Below, piece after piece: positions 13,698 to 22,794 of a stretch of 64,000 nucleotides of DNA. The position numbers and the translations under genes are program-made. The stretch covers positions 145,716 through 209,715 of the forward strand of contig NZ_AXAE01000012.1 in assembly GCF_000472705.1 (NCBI RefSeq), in the 5' to 3' direction. A model generated the notes under the pieces. It did no database searches. It had not been told where the DNA came from and was given only the letters and a program-made list of their open reading frames with translations. How positions within the stretch are numbered: position 1 is the stretch's first letter; each line of letters opens with the position of its first letter. This DNA is from Mesorhizobium erdmanii USDA 3471. Its GTDB lineage: Bacteria > Pseudomonadota > Alphaproteobacteria > Rhizobiales > Rhizobiaceae.

Positions 13698-13982
13698 ATG
13701 GACCACAGCACCCACATCAGGCTGACCAATGCCGAACTGACCAACGACACGCTCGAGGGCGCCACCATCTACGGCCCCGGCGACGAGAAGATCGGCTCGG
13801 TCGACCATGTGCATGGCAGCCAGGTCGTCATCGACGTCGGCGGCTTCCTCGGCATCGGTGCCAAACCCGTCGCCGTTGCCGCCAGCGAACTCGACTTCAT
13901 GCGCGACGACGATGGCGACATCCACGCCGTGACCAACTGGACCAAGGACCAGCTGAAAAAGATGCCCGAACACCGCGACTGA
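13698..13982 (+). CDS. PRC-barrel domain protein
   Basis: The 94-residue protein consists of one PRC-barrel, with GATIYGPGDEKIGSVDHVH, the strand VVIDVGGFLGIGAKPVAV and the ending ELDFMRDDDGDIHAVTNWT. PRC-barrels bind protein or RNA partners and are common in rhizobial stress-related small proteins. The ATG at 13698 follows an AGGAG. A degraded relative of the C-terminal half lies at 15501. A terminator follows directly. Confidence 0.82.
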   Translation: MDHSTHIRLTNAELTNDTLEGATIYGPGDEKIGSVDHVHGSQVVIDVGGFLGIGAKPVAVAASELDFMRDDDGDIHAVTNWTKDQLKKMPEHRD

Positions 13983-14437: not shown

Positions 14438-14511
14438 TCGTCGAGGCTCCAGGGCTCGACATTCAATATCGTAGACGTTGAAACCCATGTTGCTTTTCGG
14501 AGGATATGGAC
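14438..14511 (+). promoter_or_regulatory. ROSE-type RNA thermometer
   Basis: The leader ends TTGCTTTTCGGAGGATATGG: the TTGCT box opposite the GGAGGAT ribosome-binding site is the conserved last stem of ROSE elements, which hide the start site of rhizobial small heat-shock genes at low temperature. Upstream segments can form the additional stems usual for ROSE. The position directly before an Hsp20 gene supports the call. Confidence 0.72.
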
Positions 14512-14994
14512 ATGAGAAGCTTTGACTACGCACCCCTCTATCGCACGACGGTCGGCTTTGACCGCCTTTTCAACATGCTCGACAGCGGCCCGCGCCCGGA
14601 CTGGCCGCCTTACAACATCGAGAAGATCGGCGAGCACGACTATCGCATCACAATGGCGGTGGCCGGATTCAGCGAACAGGAAATCGAACTGACGCAGCAC
14701 GGCCCCGAACTCATCGTGACCGGCCACAAGAACGCCGAGGATGAAGGGCGCCAGATCCTGCACCGTGGGCTCGCGATCGGCGATTTCAAGCAGGTCTTCC
14801 GGATCGCCGACCACGTCAAGGTCAAGGCGGCGACGCTGCGCGATGGGCTTCTGTCCATCGAGCTGGTCCAGGAAATTCCGGAAGAATTGAAGCCGCGCCG
14901 CATCCCCGTCGGCGGCGGGTCGGTCTCGGCCGAGGCGTCGAACGACACCGCTCGAATTGCCGGCGATGGCCGCGCGGGGCGCAAGGCCGCCTGA
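14512..14994 (+). CDS. Small heat-shock protein, Hsp20/IbpA type
   Basis: The 160-residue chaperone begins MRSFDYAPLYRTTVGFDRLF as in class A rhizobial Hsp20 proteins. The alpha-crystallin domain runs about residues 33-125 (YNIEKIGEHDYRITMAVAGF, ending in ATLRDGLLSIEL), with a short C-terminal tail containing the PRRIPV (I/V-x-I/V-like) anchor. It holds unfolding proteins during heat stress. The second ATG (14512) is preferred over 14506, because GGAGG lies eight bases upstream instead of two. A ROSE thermometer and an RpoH-like promoter precede it. Confidence 0.9.
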   Translation: MRSFDYAPLYRTTVGFDRLFNMLDSGPRPDWPPYNIEKIGEHDYRITMAVAGFSEQEIELTQHGPELIVTGHKNAEDEGRQILHRGLAIGDFKQVFRIADHVKVKAATLRDGLLSIELVQEIPEELKPRRIPVGGGSVSAEASNDTARIAGDGRAGRKAA

Positions 14995-15020
14995 CCCTGA
15001 ATTAGCAGAAGCTGCGGTTC

Positions 15021-15044
15021 GCCTCCCGGCATGGCCCGGGAGGC
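15021..15044 (+). terminator. Hairpin after Hsp20 gene
   Basis: GCCTCCCGG pairs with CCGGGAGGC around a 6-base loop, 26 bases after the Hsp20 stop. Only a weak T content follows. Confidence 0.45.
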
Positions 15045-15064
15045 CGTAATTGCGGAGACAGGAG

Positions 15065-15502
15065 ATGACTAGAGAATTCGACACATCAACCAAGCCGAAC
15101 ACCAACTTTTCGAGCCGCCTCGGCGCCGGCATGCGCTTCCTTGTCCCTGGCGACGTGCTCAGGGACGCGGCGCTCTCGACCGCCGAGAAAAGAGCCATGC
15201 TGTCGTTCTGGGCTTCCGATGCGAACGTCGTTGCCGATGCGCCGTCGCTGCGTCAGCTGGAAGGTGGCATCGCGGTCGGGATCGACGACATCCTCAAAGC
15301 CCTGAAATCCCTCGATACGCCACCCGCGATCGGCACAAGGTGGCCCCGAGCGCTCGACCGCCGACGCAGCGCTGCCCGCCGGTGGTTCCGCCGCCCGGGC
15401 CCGAACGATGACGATGATCCGCCGCCCTCTCCGGCATGTGTGATGTATCCACGGCGCGGGGGTGGCGGAGCCGTCGCGGTTCCAGAACCGGCTTACGCGT
15501 AA
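15065..15502 (+). CDS. Conserved rhizobial hypothetical protein
   Basis: The 145-residue protein starts MTREFDTSTKPNTNFSSRLG. The first 75 residues look conserved in style (PGDVLRDAALSTAEKRAMLS, then a helical segment to DDILKALKSLD). The tail is basic then acidic/proline-rich (DDDDPPPSPACVMYPR) and ends in low-complexity sequence that overlaps a PRC-barrel remnant in another frame. GGAG lies seven bases before the ATG. I do not recognise a function; it may be a small stress-associated cytosolic protein. The unusual C-terminus may result from a fusion with downstream DNA. Confidence 0.6.
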   Translation: MTREFDTSTKPNTNFSSRLGAGMRFLVPGDVLRDAALSTAEKRAMLSFWASDANVVADAPSLRQLEGGIAVGIDDILKALKSLDTPPAIGTRWPRALDRRRSAARRWFRRPGPNDDDDPPPSPACVMYPRRGGGGAVAVPEPAYA

Positions 15503-15662
15503 GGGCGGCGTTCTTGGCATCGGCGCCAAGCTGGTCGCGGCAAAAGAGCTCGACTTTATGCGGGGCGCGGATGGCGAGGTCCACGCAGTGACCAGCTGGA
15601 CGGTGGCGGAGCGCATCCTTCCGGACAGAACTCAGCCACCGAAGCCGGGCCTTCAGGAATAG
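15501..15662 (+). pseudogene. PRC-barrel remnant
   Basis: The frame encodes GGVLGIGAKLVA, then KELDFMRGADGEVHAVTSWT, closely matching the second half of the PRC-barrel protein at 13698 (GGFLGIGAKPVAV, ELDFMRDDDGDIHAVTNWT). The first half of the barrel is missing and no start codon with a ribosome-binding site belongs to it. It overlaps the end of the preceding gene by two bases. Confidence 0.7.
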
Positions 15663-15924
15663 GATGAGCGAACAGCCTCAGTTTTATCAAATATGCAAGC
15701 GTTTCATTTACCAAGTTCTTTGAGAAATTATAAAATACATCAGCAAATTCAATGGTCAAAAACGATAGGAATATATGCGCGTTGACTGATAAAAGAACTT
15801 GTGTACATTAAACACGCCGAAGCAAATCGGTGCACGCAGACTTGCGTTGATCTCAATTCTCATTGTTTAAACATTCTTTTTGCGTGTAAACAACGCATGT
15901 CTGCCTTTTGAGTGAGGGAAGACA
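15663..15924. other. AT-rich leader region of borosin locus
   Basis: This stretch is clearly more AT-rich than its surroundings. Beside the promoter listed at 15782 it holds a second candidate (TTTACC at 15707, TATAAA at 15729, 16-base spacing) and a 10-base palindrome TGTTTAAACA (15864-15873) that could bind a regulator. The base composition suggests imported DNA. Confidence 0.5.
15782..15809 (+). promoter_or_regulatory. Candidate sigma-70 promoter for borosin precursor
   Basis: TTGACT at 15782 and TACATT at 15804, spaced 16 bases, give a leader of about 105 bases before the precursor start. Confidence 0.5.
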
Positions 15925-16152
15925 ATGGCTGGAAAGCTCGCAACTTACTTGACAGATATCGCCAAAGACCACGCTAAAATGACCACCTTCAAGGCGGACC
16001 CTTATAGCGCGATGAACGGTGCTGGCCTGTCAGACAAGGAAATCACTGCTGTTCTGAGCAAGAAACCTGAACTGATCAGCCAGGCGATCGGAGGCCGGGG
16101 CGGCCTTGCCGCGGCGGATGCAGATACCACGGTCGTCGTCGTGGTTCTCTGA
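15925..16152 (+). CDS. Borosin-type RiPP precursor peptide
   Basis: The 75-residue protein has a helical N-terminal domain (about residues 1-55: YLTDIAKDHAKMTTFKADPY, then AGLSDKEITAVLSKKPEL) with the layout of the borosin-binding domain of split borosin precursors such as SonA (short helices, an F-x-x-DP turn, then GLxxxEI). A Gly/Ala-rich linker (GGRGGLAAADAD) leads to a hydrophobic C-terminal tail TTVVVVVL, the probable core whose backbone amides are methylated. It ends without a follower. The methyltransferase lies directly downstream. The ATG at 15925 follows GAGGGAAG. The AT-rich surroundings hint at transfer. The family comparison is from memory, not a search. Confidence 0.78.
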   Translation: MAGKLATYLTDIAKDHAKMTTFKADPYSAMNGAGLSDKEITAVLSKKPELISQAIGGRGGLAAADADTTVVVVVL

Positions 16153-16171
16153 CTGTTTTCGAACGACGACA

Positions 16172-16191
16172 GCTTCCTAGAAGCAGTTTTT
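16172..16191 (+). terminator. Weak hairpin between precursor and methyltransferase
   Basis: GCTTC/GAAGC with a 3-base loop is followed by AGTTTTT. It could partly end transcription after the precursor, so that more peptide than enzyme is made, as in many RiPP operons. The stem is short. Confidence 0.35.
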
Positions 16192-16349
16192 GGCCCGTAC
16201 AAGCCTATCGGAATTGCACTCGAACACTGTGTGCGGGCCAGCTTTCAACCAAAGGTCAGCGCTACCGCCCGTCGAGACCGACTTGGTTGGTTATAGTTTC
16301 TCGCCAGGGTTTTGTACCAACGTGTGCATCCGCACCACAGGAGGTCATT

Positions 16350-17222
16350 GTGAAACAGATCGCTTCCGGCGAATTAATCGTCGTCGGTACCGGCATCGGA
16401 CTGGCGGGGAACATGACGGCCTCGACGGAATCCATCATCATTCAGGCGGAGAAGCTACTGTATGTCGTGGCAGACGTGGCAACCGCCGCCTACCTCGAGC
16501 AGTTGAACAGCACGGCGGAATCCATTTATTCCCTGTATGACGAGAGTCTTGACAGGATCGACACCTATTACAAGATGACCGAATGCATATTAGGCCATGT
16601 CCGGGCCGGGCTAAAAACGTGCGCCGCCTTTTACGGGCACCCCGGCATCTTCGTCTTCCCGGCTCACGAGGCCGTCCTGAGGGCCCGGGCGGAAGGCTAT
16701 CGTGCCGAAATGAAGGCGGCCGTTTCAGCCGAAGATTGCCTTTTTGCCGATCTTGGCATCGATCCTGGGCGCGTCGGCTGCCAGTCATTCGAGGCAACCG
16801 ACTTTCTGGTGTATGATCGCATCTTCGATCCGAACAGCCTGCTCGTCCTGTGGCAGGTCGGGGTTATCGGCCAAATCGGATTTCGCAGGCAGTTCCCTAT
16901 CGGACACAATATCGAAGTGCTCAAAGAAGCGCTTCGTGCGCATTATCCAGCGGATCATCACGTAATTGTCTACGAGGCAAGTGTGCTGCCGGTATGCGAC
17001 CCCATCATTCGCCCGTTCCGCCTTGACAAGCTGGACCCCAGCGCGTTGTCGCCGATCTCGACACTCGTCGTGCCTCCGCTGTCGAGCCGGCGCGGCCCTA
17101 ACATCGATATAGTTCGCAGACTGGATATCCCGGAACGCTATATTCTGAAGCGAGCAGAGGATCCGTCACTATACGATCCGGCAAAGCCGGGCGCGCTCGT
17201 AGACTGGCCGGCAACGGTCTGA
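16350..17222 (+). CDS. Split borosin peptide alpha-N-methyltransferase
   Basis: The 290-residue SAM enzyme has a tetrapyrrole-methylase fold: VVGTGIGLAGNMTASTES (residues 11-28), FYGHPGIFVFPAHEA (94-108) and SAEDCLFADLGIDPGRVG (126-143), then CQSFEATDFLVYDR. These blocks are typical of borosin methyltransferases (OphMA, SonM), which methylate backbone amides of a peptide. Tyr63, Arg69, Tyr73 and Tyr95 have the same spacing as the catalytic Tyr66, Arg72, Tyr76 and Tyr98 that I recall for OphA. The precursor is a separate gene 197 bases upstream, making this a split system. The GTG at 16350 has AGGAGG five bases upstream. Confidence 0.85.
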   Translation: MKQIASGELIVVGTGIGLAGNMTASTESIIIQAEKLLYVVADVATAAYLEQLNSTAESIYSLYDESLDRIDTYYKMTECILGHVRAGLKTCAAFYGHPGIFVFPAHEAVLRARAEGYRAEMKAAVSAEDCLFADLGIDPGRVGCQSFEATDFLVYDRIFDPNSLLVLWQVGVIGQIGFRRQFPIGHNIEVLKEALRAHYPADHHVIVYEASVLPVCDPIIRPFRLDKLDPSALSPISTLVVPPLSSRRGPNIDIVRRLDIPERYILKRAEDPSLYDPAKPGALVDWPATV

Positions 17223-17400
17223 TGGTAGATCGGTTGGGACGATTTCGAAGCCAGTAGTGTCGAAAAGGGACCGCTACCGGACAGGTATGAGTCAAAAAAT
17301 GACAAGACCCGCCGGACAGGTCCACCGGGTTCGGAACCGAACGTCGGCATCGAGCGTCCCCGGATTTCACCGCATCGGGATTGACGCCAGAAGACCAGGA

Positions 17401-17424
17401 GTGGGCCCGGCAACAACGGGCCCG
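17401..17424. terminator. Hairpin between convergent genes
   Basis: GGGCCCG and CGGGCCC (17403-17423) pair around a 7-base loop. It lies 180 bases after the methyltransferase and 45 bases beyond the end of the leftward membrane protein gene, so it may serve both. Confidence 0.5.
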
Positions 17425-17467
17425 CTCCGCTTTCTGGCACTTGCCTCTTCAGCTCTGGGCGTGCGGC

Positions 17468-17965
17468 TCATTCCTTGGCCGGCTCTTCGTAGATGCCGAT
17501 GATCAGCAGCCACGCGCCCGAAATGAGGAAGGCGAACAAAACGATGGTTCCAAGGGCCGCGATGTAAAGCCCTATGCCGCGTCCGAGAACCAGCAGAAAC
17601 GCGCCGATGACTTCGGCGAGGTAGCACACCGTGCCGCCCGCGAGCCGGGGCACGGTCAGCCCGATGGAGCTCATCCCCGACTTGATGGCGACGACATAGC
17701 CTCTGACAAAGATGAAGGTCGCGACGACCCATAGCAAAAGCCATTCGAGGCCGAGTGTTAGAAGATACTGACCGCCCAGAAGCGCTAGGCTGCAGGCCAT
17801 GAAAATCGCACTGAAGCCTGACAGCATATTGATGGCCCGGTTCTTGTGCGTCGTGTTGCGGACTATGCGTTCGGGATTGATCGAGATGGCGACGAAGATC
17901 AACCCGGCCAGCCCCGCCGCGCCGCCGCCCACCATGATGAAGAAATTGGTCCATTGATCCAACAT
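17468..17965 (-). CDS. Small integral membrane protein
   Basis: The 165-residue protein has about five hydrophobic segments: GGGAAGLAGLIFVAISI, an AIFMACSLALLGGQYLLTL stretch, LLLWVVATFIFVRGYV, AEVIGAFLLVLGRGIGLYIA and a final LFAFLISGAWLLIIGIY. Short charged loops lie between them (INPERIVRNTTHKNR). No transporter or enzyme motif is seen. It converges with the borosin methyltransferase, and nothing ties the two functionally. It is likely a conserved rhizobial inner-membrane protein of unknown role. Confidence 0.72.
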   Translation of the reverse strand: MLDQWTNFFIMVGGGAAGLAGLIFVAISINPERIVRNTTHKNRAINMLSGFSAIFMACSLALLGGQYLLTLGLEWLLLWVVATFIFVRGYVVAIKSGMSSIGLTVPRLAGGTVCYLAEVIGAFLLVLGRGIGLYIAALGTIVLFAFLISGAWLLIIGIYEEPAKE

Positions 17966-18351: not shown

Positions 18352-19200
18352 GTGACCTTTGCCGCTCCCCTCGAGGCCAAATCCATTCGCTTTCGCGCCC
18401 GCTCTTTCGTCGCTTTCACGCTGACGCCGGAGGCGCCGATTTCTGACTGGCTGGAGGGGCTGGATCACTGGATCGGCAATTCGCCGGGGTATTTTTCCGG
18501 GCGGCCGGTGGTGCTCGATCTCAACATGCTGAAGCCTGGCGCGGACGAGATCGCTTTGCTGGTCGCTTCGCTCGGTGGGCGCGGTATCAGGGTCTATGCC
18601 ATCGAGCTCGACGGCGCCTCGCTCGGGCCGGAGCTGCCGCCACTGCTTTGCGGCGCCAAGGAGGCGACGACCGACGGCCTGCTGCCGCAGCCGGGCCGCA
18701 AGGGCAAGATCGATGCCGCCGATGAGGCCGGCAAGGCCGAAGCGGTGTTTACGGAACGCGGCAAGGACGGCAAGAAGCTCGATGAGGGCAAGGCGGAGGC
18801 TGGCAAGGCCGAGGTTGGCAAGGGCAAAGCGGTCAAGGCGACGGAGGCTGGTGCGGCGGAAACGGTTCAGGCCGGCACGCTGATGATCAAGTCGCCGATC
18901 CGCTCGGGCCAGTCGGTCTTTCATCCGCATGGCGATGTCATCGTGCTCGGCTCGGTCGCTTCGGGCTCGGAAATCATCGCGGCTGGCTCCATCCATGTCT
19001 ACGGTACGCTGCGCGGCCGCGCCATCGCGGGTTCGCAGGGCGACCGGTCGGCGCGCATCTTCTGCCGCCGCAACGAGGCGGAGATGATCTCGGTCGACGG
19101 CTGGTACACGACGGCGGAAGAGATGGACGGCGTCTCGCGCGGCAAGGCGGTGCAGGCCTTCCTCGAAGGCGACATGCTTGCCGTCGTGCCGCTGAACTAG
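18352..19200 (+). CDS. minC: Septum site-determining protein MinC
   Basis: The 282-residue FtsZ-assembly inhibitor is delivered to the membrane by MinD. The N-terminal domain (about 8-100, SIRFRARSFVAFTLTPEAP) and the C-terminal beta-helix domain (about 173-280, SGQSVFHPHGDVIVLG, AAGSIHVYGTLRGRAIAG, AQ/G-rich turns) are both intact. Between them is an unusually long, lysine/alanine/glycine-rich linker (about 105-172) with degenerate GKAEAGKAEVGKG-type repeats. It starts at a GTG with AAGGA upstream and is first in the minCDE operon behind a CtrA box. Confidence 0.92.
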   Translation: MTFAAPLEAKSIRFRARSFVAFTLTPEAPISDWLEGLDHWIGNSPGYFSGRPVVLDLNMLKPGADEIALLVASLGGRGIRVYAIELDGASLGPELPPLLCGAKEATTDGLLPQPGRKGKIDAADEAGKAEAVFTERGKDGKKLDEGKAEAGKAEVGKGKAVKATEAGAAETVQAGTLMIKSPIRSGQSVFHPHGDVIVLGSVASGSEIIAAGSIHVYGTLRGRAIAGSQGDRSARIFCRRNEAEMISVDGWYTTAEEMDGVSRGKAVQAFLEGDMLAVVPLN

Positions 19201-19346
19201 GGCGGCACGATGGAACCCCCCTTTTTTCCCGCTCCTGCCGCCCCGCAAGGTTCGGACCGGCTTGGCGTGGGATTATCGACAGGTTTTGACGGATACCGGT
19301 GCGCGAGCACGGCACAACAACAACAATCGGCGCAGGAGGCTTTTTC

Positions 19347-20162
19347 ATGGGCAAGGTAGTGGTGGTCACTTCGGGCAAGGGGGGCGTCGGCAAGACCACC
19401 TCGACGGCGGCGCTCGGTGCCGCCGTGGCCAAGACCGGCAAGAAGGTGGCGCTGGTCGATTTCGACGTCGGCCTGCGCAACCTCGACCTGATCATGGGCG
19501 CCGAGCGCCGCGTGGTGTTCGACCTCGTCAACGTCATCCAGGGCACGGCGAAGCTGTCGCAAGCGCTGATCCGCGACAAGCGGGTCGACACGCTGTTCCT
19601 GCTGCCGGCCTCGCAGACGCGCGACAAGGACGCGCTGACGGAAGAGGGCGTCGGCGAGGTCATCGACAAGCTGCGCTCGGTGTTCGACTATGTGTTCTGC
19701 GACAGCCCGGCCGGCATCGAGCGCGGCGCGCAGCTCGCCATGCGCTTTGCCGACGAGGCGGTCATCGTCACCAATCCGGAAGTGTCGTCGGTGCGCGATT
19801 CCGACCGCATCATCGGCCTGCTCGACGCCCGCACCATGCGCGCCGAACAGGGCGAGCAGATCGCCAAGCACGTGCTGGTCACCCGCTACGACGCGGCGCG
19901 GGCCGCGCGGGGTGAAATGCTCAGCATCGACGACGTGCTGGAAATCCTGTCGGTGCCGCTGCTCGGCATCATTCCCGAGAGCCAGGATGTGCTGCGCGCC
20001 TCCAACCTCGGTTCGCCGGTGACGCTGTCGGAACCACTCAACACGGCCGCCAAGGCCTATCTGGAAGCGGCACGAAGGCTGGAAGGCGAAGACCTGCCGG
20101 TCATCGTGCCCTTCGAACGCAAGGGCTTCCTCGACAGGCTGCTCGGAAGGAGGGCCGCATGA
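19347..20162 (+). CDS. minD: Septum site-determining ATPase MinD
   Basis: The 271-residue ParA-type ATPase has the deviant Walker A motif KGGVGKTT (11-18, signature Lys11), [14 protein letters not shown] and the switch region [11 protein letters not shown]. The C-terminal amphipathic helix ([10 protein letters not shown]) is the membrane-targeting sequence. It binds MinC and oscillates with MinE to keep FtsZ rings at midcell. AGGAGG lies seven bases before the ATG, and its stop overlaps minE (ATGA). Confidence 0.95.
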
Positions 20163-20431
20163 GCATTCTCGACCTCTTCAAGCGGCGCACCAGCGCGCCG
20201 GTGGCGCGCGAGCGGCTGCAAGTGCTGCTCGCCTATGAGCGCCGCAGCCGTGGCCAGCCCGATCTCGTCTCCGTCCTGCGCGAGGAGATCCTGGCGGTGA
20301 TCGCCAAGCACGTGCAGATCGACCAGGATTATCTGCAGGTCTCGATGGACCGCGGCGAGACCATGTCGACGCTGGAAATCGACATCCAGATCCCCAACAA
20401 GAGCGCCGTGCCGCTGGCGATGGCGGGCTAG
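20159..20431 (+). CDS. minE: Cell division topological specificity factor MinE
   Basis: The 90-residue protein starts [10 protein letters not shown] (membrane-binding N-terminus), then has the MinD-activating helix [18 protein letters not shown] and the dimer domain ([20 protein letters not shown]). It stimulates MinD ATPase and creates the pole-to-pole pattern. It is translationally coupled to minD. The C-terminus is slightly extended with [13 protein letters not shown]. Confidence 0.94.
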
Positions 20432-21009: not shown

Positions 21010-22794
21010 TCAATCCTGCGGTTCATGCTGGTAAAGCTCGTCCATGGTAAGCGATGCCAGGGCGCCGAAAGGCGCCTGCTTTTTGACCCGGCCGCCGCTC
21101 AGGATCACCACGTCGTCGCAGAACGAGATCGTGCTGTGGTGGTGGCTGATGACGATGGTCGCGCGGCGGCCGGCTCTCGACTTCAGGGTCTCGACAATGG
21201 CCGCTTCCGACAGCCCGTCCACCGCATTTGTGGCTTCGTCCAGGATGAGCAGATCGGGATCGCGCACCAGGGCCCTGGCCAGTGCGATCCGCTGCCTCTG
21301 TCCCGCCGACAGGTTGACACCTCTGTAGCCGACGAGTGTCTTGTAGCCCTCAGGCAGCCGTTCGATGAATTCATGCGCTTCGGCCAGTCTTGCGGCGCGC
21401 TCGGCGTCGCCGCCGGTGGCCGCGTCCTGCCCGTAGGTTATGTTCTCAAAAATGGTGCCATCGACCAGTTCCAGCTCCTGGCTGGCCAGTGCGATGTGCC
21501 GCCGCCATTGGCTGGCGTCGATCCGGTCGAGTGGCGATCCATCGACGAGGATCCTGCCGGTGTCCGGTTCCACGAAGCGGCACAGCAGATTGACGATCGT
21601 CGTTTTGCCGGCGCCAGAGCGACCGATCAGCGCCGTCGAGCGGCCGCCGCGGATTTCGAACGTCGCCGCATGCAGCACAACTTCACGCCGGTCCGTGCTG
21701 GAATAGGTGAACGTCACGTCATCGAACTTGATGCCTTGGCGCAAACCGTGGAACGGCCCGTCGCCTTGCGGCGGCCTGGGCTTGCCTGTGGGATCCAGCA
21801 TCCATGTCACCTCTTCAAGCGATCCGCTGAGGCCCTGCAACTGGCTCCACGAGCCTTGCAAGGCCCGCATGTGCGGCTGCAGTCGGTAAAGCAGGATGAC
21901 GAAGGCGATGATCAGCGGGAAACTCACTTGCGCGTACCAGGCGCCGATCACCACCGCCAGAAACAGCATGGCGTGGAGAACCTCCGTCAGCGGCGGCAAC
22001 GCTCCCTGGCGGACCTGCAGGACGAAGGAGGCGTGGCGAACCGCATCGGATGCCGTGTCGAATATCGCCTTCTCCCGGCTCTCCTGTCCGAAGATGCGGA
22101 TCAGGCGTCCGGCATGCACCAGATGGAGCATCTGCGAGGCGAGGTGGCCGTTGCGCGAAGCGACGCTGCGGCTCGGCTCTTTCAGATTGGCCGAGAGGAC
22201 GGCGTGCGCGAGCTGGACGAGCGCCAGTCCGAGCGTGACCAACAGCGTCATGCGCCACGACAGCAGGAGCAGGAAAGCCAGCAGGATGATGGCGGCCGAT
22301 GCGCTGACGATGGCCGACAGCATGATCTGGATCGCATCCGATGCGCGCCAGGATTCGTTGGAAATGATGTTGAGCAGCCGTCCGGGACTCTGCCGCAGGA
22401 AGAATGGGTAGCCGACCCGCAAGAGCTGCTCCGACAGTGCGCCGCGGATCGAATGACTTGCCTTGCCAGAGATGAAAGTCGTCAGCAGCGTGTTGGCGAA
22501 GGCGAAAACGTTCTTCAGGATGATCGAGCCGAGGATGGCGACCGAAATGGCGGCAAGCCGGTCGCGCTCGCTCAAGCCTGATCCGATTTGCTGGAGGACC
22601 GCGGAGAAACCGGCCATTCCCGCCGCATCCCCGTGTCCCATGATGATGCCCAGCAACGGGATGATCAGGCCGATGCCGAACCCTTCGAGCACGGCGCTCA
22701 CCAGCCCGAGAACCACCACGGCCGGAAGCAGGCGCAGTTGCCGCTTTCCGAACGTGCGGAACAGCATCGGCAGGCTAGGCGGAAGCAATGGCAT
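21010..22794 (-). CDS. ABC exporter, membrane and ATPase domains fused (MsbA-like)
   Basis: The 594-residue half-transporter has six membrane segments in residues 20-305, then a nucleotide-binding domain: Walker A GRSGAGKTT (391-399), Q-loop Gln439, signature LSAGQ (495-499), Walker B LLILDE (515-520) and H-loop His550/551. The family exports lipids, glycans or peptides as a homodimer. It is the last gene of a leftward run behind two glycosyltransferases and an acyltransferase, so it probably exports a glycolipid or polysaccharide intermediate made by them. Confidence 0.86.
   Translation of the reverse strand: MPLLPPSLPMLFRTFGKRQLRLLPAVVVLGLVSAVLEGFGIGLIIPLLGIIMGHGDAAGMAGFSAVLQQIGSGLSERDRLAAISVAILGSIILKNVFAFANTLLTTFISGKASHSIRGALSEQLLRVGYPFFLRQSPGRLLNIISNESWRASDAIQIMLSAIVSASAAIILLAFLLLLSWRMTLLVTLGLALVQLAHAVLSANLKEPSRSVASRNGHLASQMLHLVHAGRLIRIFGQESREKAIFDTASDAVRHASFVLQVRQGALPPLTEVLHAMLFLAVVIGAWYAQVSFPLIIAFVILLYRLQPHMRALQGSWSQLQGLSGSLEEVTWMLDPTGKPRPPQGDGPFHGLRQGIKFDDVTFTYSSTDRREVVLHAATFEIRGGRSTALIGRSGAGKTTIVNLLCRFVEPDTGRILVDGSPLDRIDASQWRRHIALASQELELVDGTIFENITYGQDAATGGDAERAARLAEAHEFIERLPEGYKTLVGYRGVNLSAGQRQRIALARALVRDPDLLILDEATNAVDGLSEAAIVETLKSRAGRRATIVISHHHSTISFCDDVVILSGGRVKKQAPFGALASLTMDELYQHEPQD

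Follow-up and report, generated by a model that had tools for sequence, protein, structure and literature searches.

A probable type IV split borosin gene pair with a valine-rich precursor tail in Mesorhizobium erdmanii USDA 3471

Two neighbouring genes of Mesorhizobium erdmanii USDA 3471, one encoding a small protein that ends in TTVVVVVL and the other an enzyme related to tetrapyrrole methylases, raise the question whether they form a split borosin locus, in which the backbone of a ribosomal peptide is N-methylated by a separate enzyme, and what would then become of the methylated tail. Both lie within a stretch of 64,000 nucleotides (contig NZ_AXAE01000012.1, positions 145,716 to 209,715), referred to here as the window, the coordinates of which are used throughout (Table 1). 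A split borosin had already been proposed in an initial annotation of this DNA and this was upheld here: the enzyme was placed among borosin N-methyltransferases and the predicted fold of the small protein was that of the SonA domain. The two ORFs follow each other on the same strand, precursor before enzyme, and the pair is highly likely to be a type IV (class 3) split borosin. Type IV split borosins date from 2021, with types V-X described subsequently (PMC11395268, PMC11285071); a figure legend assigns to class 3 those systems in which one protein carries both binding domain and core and the methyltransferase is separate (PMC11395268). The locus was filed under this already established kind because the sequence-level features tested were present, namely a separately encoded alpha-N-methyltransferase of the OphMA/SonM family, the active-site residues needed to bind the core and activate the amide, a separate short precursor with an N-terminal five-helix borosin-binding domain (weak E-values, consistent ranking) and a predicted hydrophobic C-terminal core without follower. 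Its distinguishing mark is the Val-tailed sub-branch to which it belongs.

Table 1. Coordinates of the gene pair, its parts and the surrounding segments in the window.
Feature	Position	Strand	Evidence
Unit common to the window and genome G039	15668..17371	+	92.5% identity over 1720 columns; flanks unmatched
Segment missing from the syntenic site of genome G073	15602..17439	.	G073 carries 245 bp of different DNA instead
AT-rich upstream region, likely promoter	15668..15924	+	37.7% GC; 88% identical in G039
Split-borosin precursor, 75 aa, SonA-like	15925..16152	+	SonA E 0.004, model, structure matches
Borosin-binding domain, five predicted helices, residues 4-56	15934..16092	+	Model; best matches SonA
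AAAD, residues 62-65, clade-specific AA(x)D motif	16108..16119	+	6/6 clade precursors, 0/45 others
Predicted core TTVVVVVL, residues 68-75, C-terminal, no follower	16126..16149	+	Sequence; inside low-confidence tail
Borosin alpha-N-methyltransferase, 290 aa, SonM/OphMA-like, GTG start	16350..17222	+	Sequence, model, residues

Family, fold and active site of the enzyme can be regarded as established. Its mechanical ORF opens at TTG 16287; GTG 16350, with AGGAGG just upstream, is better placed and is the likely start. A phmmer search against all PDB sequences gave 25 distinct sequences at E ≤1, and all 25 were borosin N-methyltransferases (E 2.1e-58 for OphA, 1.8e-56 for SonM and 1.5e-44 for MroMA of Mycena). 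The AlphaFold2 model (22-row alignment) reached a mean pLDDT of 84, and the best 50 of the 945 Foldseek rows obtained with it at E ≤10 were all borosin enzymes, with OphA at E 1.4e-30 and SonM at a TMt of 0.86-0.90. Counted from the GTG, residues Y60, Y63, R69, Y73 and Y95 align without gaps to Y63, Y66, R72, Y76 and Y98 of OphA, the latter being identified from the titles of mutant structures (Y63F, Y66F, R72A, Y76F and Y98A). The initial numbering of Tyr63, Arg69, Tyr73 and Tyr95, given with OphA spacing, agrees with this start and was confirmed by the OphA alignment. The residues named for SonM in PMC8429565 (Y58, R67, Y71, Y93, F99, E146, W166 and Q167) correspond to Y60, R69, Y73, Y95, F101, E148, W168 and Q169, the SonM numbering being inferred from a constant offset of +2 over these eight residues rather than from a printed alignment. 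All nine structure-function residues checked were present. Y63, R69 and Y73 were invariant and Y95 nearly so in ten aligned sequences (the window and nine relatives); in 31 aligned sequences Y73 was invariant and Y63, R69 and Y95 were kept in at least 90% of cases. A fused borosin (types I-III) was considered and rejected: the enzyme matches OphA only to residue 260 of its 290, and the precursor is a separate ORF.

The 75-residue protein ending in TTVVVVVL was found at the expected place, with the C-terminus ADADTTVVVVVL, and the stop codon directly follows VVVVVL, in line with the earlier remark that there is no follower. Ribosome-site-like stretches precede both gene starts, that of the precursor reading GAGGGAAG. 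Of the 500 ORFs in the window with 50 aa or more, the precursor alone carries VVVVV within the final eight residues, and this tail was kept in G039. The precursor model (27-row alignment, mean pLDDT 69.8) displayed helices at residues 4-14, 16-24, 26-32, 37-44 and 48-56, followed by a low-confidence tail from 58 to 75; the borosin-binding domain of SonA is likewise described as a five-helix bundle in PMC8429565. With this model, the top Foldseek rows were SonA chains, the best at E 0.029 with a TMt of 0.86 and 0.9 A, and OphMA clasp regions came next. Borosin chains of the SonA or OphMA type made up 39 of the 44 rows; LigAB, Os1348 and three tubulin entries accounted for the remainder. VIA-align gave a Z of 8.4 against SonA (1.2 A over 54 residues), a re-examination of 45 Foldseek chains and so not an independent search; a Z below about 13 may reflect a common helical-bundle arrangement, just as the Foldseek E-values were 0.029 or worse. 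As such a Z is modest for helical bundles, the argument relies on concordant rank, sequence and gene context, which together with the model bear out the borosin-binding-like helical domain proposed at the outset. The sequence match to SonA was itself weak (E 0.004) and nominally poorer than a sub-cut-off NCBIfam match of residues 8-37 to the IniB N-terminal domain (E 0.0006, 19.7 of 40 bits), which perhaps denotes a shared small helical domain. A Pfam match to mTERF (E 0.17) was at chance level.

The kind is common: a scan of the genomes of 84,980 species with an alignment as query gave at least 595 candidate stretches, at least 585 of them encoding a relative, and of which 79 loci were kept. 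With the single enzyme sequence as query, relatives were confirmed in none of 28 candidate stretches. Relatives spanned cyanobacteria, myxobacteria, actinomycetes, gammaproteobacteria, archaea and others. Among these and further loci, 95 contained a total of 99 enzyme ORFs, with 54 small precursors beside them (220 aa at most, on the same strand and no more than 1.5 kb from the enzyme), leaving 51 precursors in 47 loci after removal of the duplicates L002, L013 and L016. Beside the remaining enzymes no precursor of this sort was detected; several loci carry the binding domain in a larger protein. In a tree of 96 enzyme rows, from which window duplicates, fragments of up to 180 residues and rows rich in X were left out, the enzymes of the window, G039, Rhizobium wuzhouense and Rhodoblastus formed one clade (support 95/94). 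In all six clade precursors AA(x)D precedes a Val-rich end, these ends being TTVVVVVL (window and G039, near-identical), VNVVVVVL, VWTVVVVI, NVTIVVVVAP and EIVLVVVI. Outside the clade, AA(x)D was absent from the last 30 residues of all 45 precursors, a contrast that is descriptive and not a test, the motif having been picked after inspection. A run of at least three Val in the last 25 residues occurred in one of these 45 (L071, from an archaeon), and not at the very end. The conserved Val-rich tail is established for the pair, as are the fold of the binding domain and the adjacency of the two genes; AAAD is a candidate cut or register site. Genome-wide precursor searches in R. wuzhouense and Rhodoblastus gave only one additional weak match (E 7.7e-4, in R. 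wuzhouense). A Gly-Gly leader cut at GGRGG (residues 56-60) is not favoured, the GG pair being found, among the other clade precursors, in G039 and one Rhodoblastus tail and in neither R. wuzhouense tail. No Val-rich core was named in the titles and abstract openings of the borosin literature covered, a scope that excludes Imani 2022 and Cho 2022 (types V-X).

The shared unit of about 1.7 kb, holding just the two genes, is carried by G039 at an unrelated locus, next to a magnesium-chelatase C-terminal-domain fragment and a DDE transposase. Synteny between genome G073 and the window extends to 15601 and resumes at 17440; among the matches listed, G073 alone covers most of 14500-15601 (91%). A 66-bp piece at 15601-15666 recurs in a different setting in genome G092, so that the insertion site appears as a mosaic. 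The enzyme was present in two of the 146 genomes of the genus; broader alignments detected relatives in two of 394 genomes of the family (the second being G1137, an R. wuzhouense genome by its match coordinates), in four of 397 of the order and in four of 385 of the class, M. erdmanii itself being counted each time. The empty site in G073, the different site in G039 and the rarity in the genus support the earlier suggestion of acquisition. The AT-rich surroundings on which it was based were also recovered, with 37.7% GC upstream (15668-15924) and 56-58% in the two genes against 64.8% in the window. The gene pair is apparently mobile and its recent movement is established, as is purifying selection: between the window and G039, dN/dS was 0.093 for the enzyme and 0.167 for the precursor, the latter value resting on just five nonsynonymous and nine synonymous differences. 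Visual inspection of the ends of the unit revealed neither a terminal inverted repeat nor a target duplication, no tRNA was found in the window and no Rfam match in 15400-17700. A phage origin was rejected, as a search of 50,697 phage records at E 1e-5 was negative. Plasmid records contained no near-copy, only short DNA stretches of 69-70% identity in two records, and distant enzyme relatives in 13. Promoter-like sites at 15707-15736 and 15782-15809 are consensus matches only, and no attenuator is proposed, since G039 retains just four of the five pairs in the terminator-like stem at 16172-16184.

Some observations concern the flanks. Two short gene tails (13892-13942 and 15551-15601, 82% alike) flank an HSP20 gene, and the match of the second to G073 ends at 15601, the point at which the borosin segment starts. 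About 0.9 kb downstream of the insert begin the min genes (18352-20431), with minC recognised by Pfam and its neighbours presumably minD and minE.

Were the enzyme an ordinary cobalamin/siroheme tetrapyrrole methylase and the small ORF unrelated, its sole Pfam match, TP_methylase (PF00590, 47.7 bits against a cut-off of 27.8), would be accounted for, as would weak NCBIfam matches to YabN and precorrin-3B. The Pfam match is at superfamily level, however, and the NCBIfam scores are far below cut-off (29.9 of 525 bits and 16.1 of 391 bits, respectively); no pathway-specific cobalamin/siroheme family exceeded its curated cut-off in NCBIfam and no such relative was found in the PDB at E ≤1. With exclusively borosin enzymes among the PDB relatives, borosin active-site residues in place and a predicted borosin-binding-like fold for the precursor, this explanation is exceedingly improbable, and the placement in those clades that the initial annotation had named as a refuting outcome was not seen. 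A decaying, inactive remnant of horizontal transfer would fit the mosaic site, with its gene tail that ceases to match the relative at 15601, and the rarity of the pair in the genus. It is nevertheless very unlikely, given that both frames are intact in two genomes at different sites, that both genes display low dN/dS and that the catalytic residues are kept.

A more substantial alternative, though still an unlikely one, concerns the product rather than the enzyme: the precursor would never be cut and no RiPP natural product made, the N-methylated, protease-resistant Val tail working on the intact protein, where it might, for instance, mask a hydrophobic C-terminal degradation signal or touch membranes. 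The shared unit contains the two genes only, and the earlier statement that no peptidase is encoded nearby held for the ten neighbouring window ORFs, in which Pfam detected neither peptidase nor transporter (five of the ten matched no family); nor was a Pfam peptidase found among the neighbours scanned in R. wuzhouense (four), Rhodoblastus (three) and G039 (three). That statement does not extend to the genome, in which maturation genes can be elsewhere and two prolyl-oligopeptidase (S9) type genes were found on other contigs. These two mean little, as the same family search was positive in five of 14 control genomes. Near the enzyme, a prolyl oligopeptidase was encountered in two of 118 loci (flanks of varied length), both of them plasmid loci outside the clade. 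Transport genes, which also speak against an uncut tail, exist in CbiQ and BioY upstream of the R. wuzhouense pair (probably biotin uptake) and in an ORF at 21010-22794 of the window, beyond the min genes, that may encode an ABC transporter; the AA(x)D between domain and tail would moreover suit a cut site. A further, weak match to prolyl oligopeptidase at 44783-44487 (E 3e-4) was taken as chance, since it overlaps a long minus-strand ORF, presumably xanthine-dehydrogenase-like. That the whole alphaproteobacterial Val-tailed branch is a two-gene, peptidase-free, mobile cassette with the methylated 75-residue protein itself as product is a speculative and doubtful extension. If true, backbone methylation would here be a protein modification giving a protease-proof hydrophobic C-terminus rather than a step in secreted-peptide synthesis.

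Under the preferred reading, a split borosin, the gene pair very probably methylates the backbone of the valine-rich tail. We infer the following course. By analogy with SonM, the methyltransferase would act as a homodimer and bind the five-helix N-terminal domain of the precursor, which would thread the disordered C-terminal tail into the catalytic site. There, several residues of DTTVVVVVL would be methylated on their backbone amides from S-adenosylmethionine, presumably proceeding from the N- toward the C-terminal side. Should the tail be cut off, the cut would probably lie near AA(x)D, with a host protease from another locus responsible; otherwise the small protein with its methylated tail would itself be the product. 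Backbone N-methylation confers protease resistance and membrane permeability on peptides, and consecutive N-methyl-valines are reminiscent of cyclosporin and similar non-ribosomal drugs. The two-gene system, in which the proteins are small and the tail is a simple oligo-Val stretch, is convenient for trying the production of N-methylated peptides, and the absence of a neighbouring protease makes the final product of bacterial split borosins directly testable.

Among known systems, the pair most resembles SonM-SonA of Shewanella oneidensis MR-1 (type IV). As described in PMC8429565, that system likewise consists of a separate methyltransferase and a precursor of ~75 aa, with a five-helix binding domain followed by a C-terminal core, and displays the same active-site residues. 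SonA is methylated on L63 and I65 and SonM has 263 aa (PMC8429565), whereas the window tail is a Val run preceded by AA(x)D, in which it also differs from SonA, and the enzyme is longer at 290 aa, the extra residues being C-terminal. The fungal OphMA (omphalotin, type I fused) shares the methyltransferase fold and residues, and its clasp region was among the structural matches of the precursor; it is fused, however, and according to PMC12235650 cyclised by the peptidase OphP, while the window locus is split and no such neighbour was found.

After G039, the nearest enzymes were those of Rhizobium wuzhouense W44 (L030, 51%) and Rhodoblastus sp. SSC7 (L038, 48%), which belong to the same clade and likewise have Val-rich tails with AA(x)D, but each with two tandem precursors instead of one. 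On plasmid p155_2 of Bradyrhizobium sp. 155 (L007) and a plasmid of Haloarcula sp. CBA1115 (L012), a small precursor directly precedes the enzyme, as in the window; unlike it, they have an adjacent prolyl oligopeptidase, tails devoid of Val runs and enzymes outside the clade. The Bradyrhizobium locus (L007, 1763-6838), on a conjugative plasmid, encodes two borosin methyltransferases, a TauD-type dioxygenase, one precursor with the tail RVIRIRNIRIRFGV and the prolyl oligopeptidase; the haloarchaeal split borosin (L012, 2444-6882) is accompanied by the adjacent prolyl oligopeptidase and an ABC transporter gene. On pSymA of S. meliloti KH35c (L011, 1708-4792), a nitroreductase-family protein is followed by a precursor ending in GVSVNVTITLGISIP and a borosin methyltransferase.

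Other arrangements of the binding domain were also encountered. In L072 (6802-7992) and L082 (6757-7989), methyltransferase proteins carrying it at the C-terminus are encoded directly before the borosin methyltransferase gene, that of L072 with a PRMT_C match and that of L082 alike by eye. In L059 (3389-5191), a 600-aa protein has a borosin-binding domain followed by a short tail at its C-terminus, with a cyclase gene and a borosin enzyme nearby; its GGGVSGCYCAYRL-type motif is presumably an FAD motif. Two myxobacterial proteins (L069, 7072-8001, and L055, 7024-8001), in which the binding domain is followed by many VVYAAG- or MVYGA-type repeats, look like multi-core precursors. Finally, a binding-domain-like stretch is fused N-terminally to the borosin methyltransferase itself in L097 (7782-8786).
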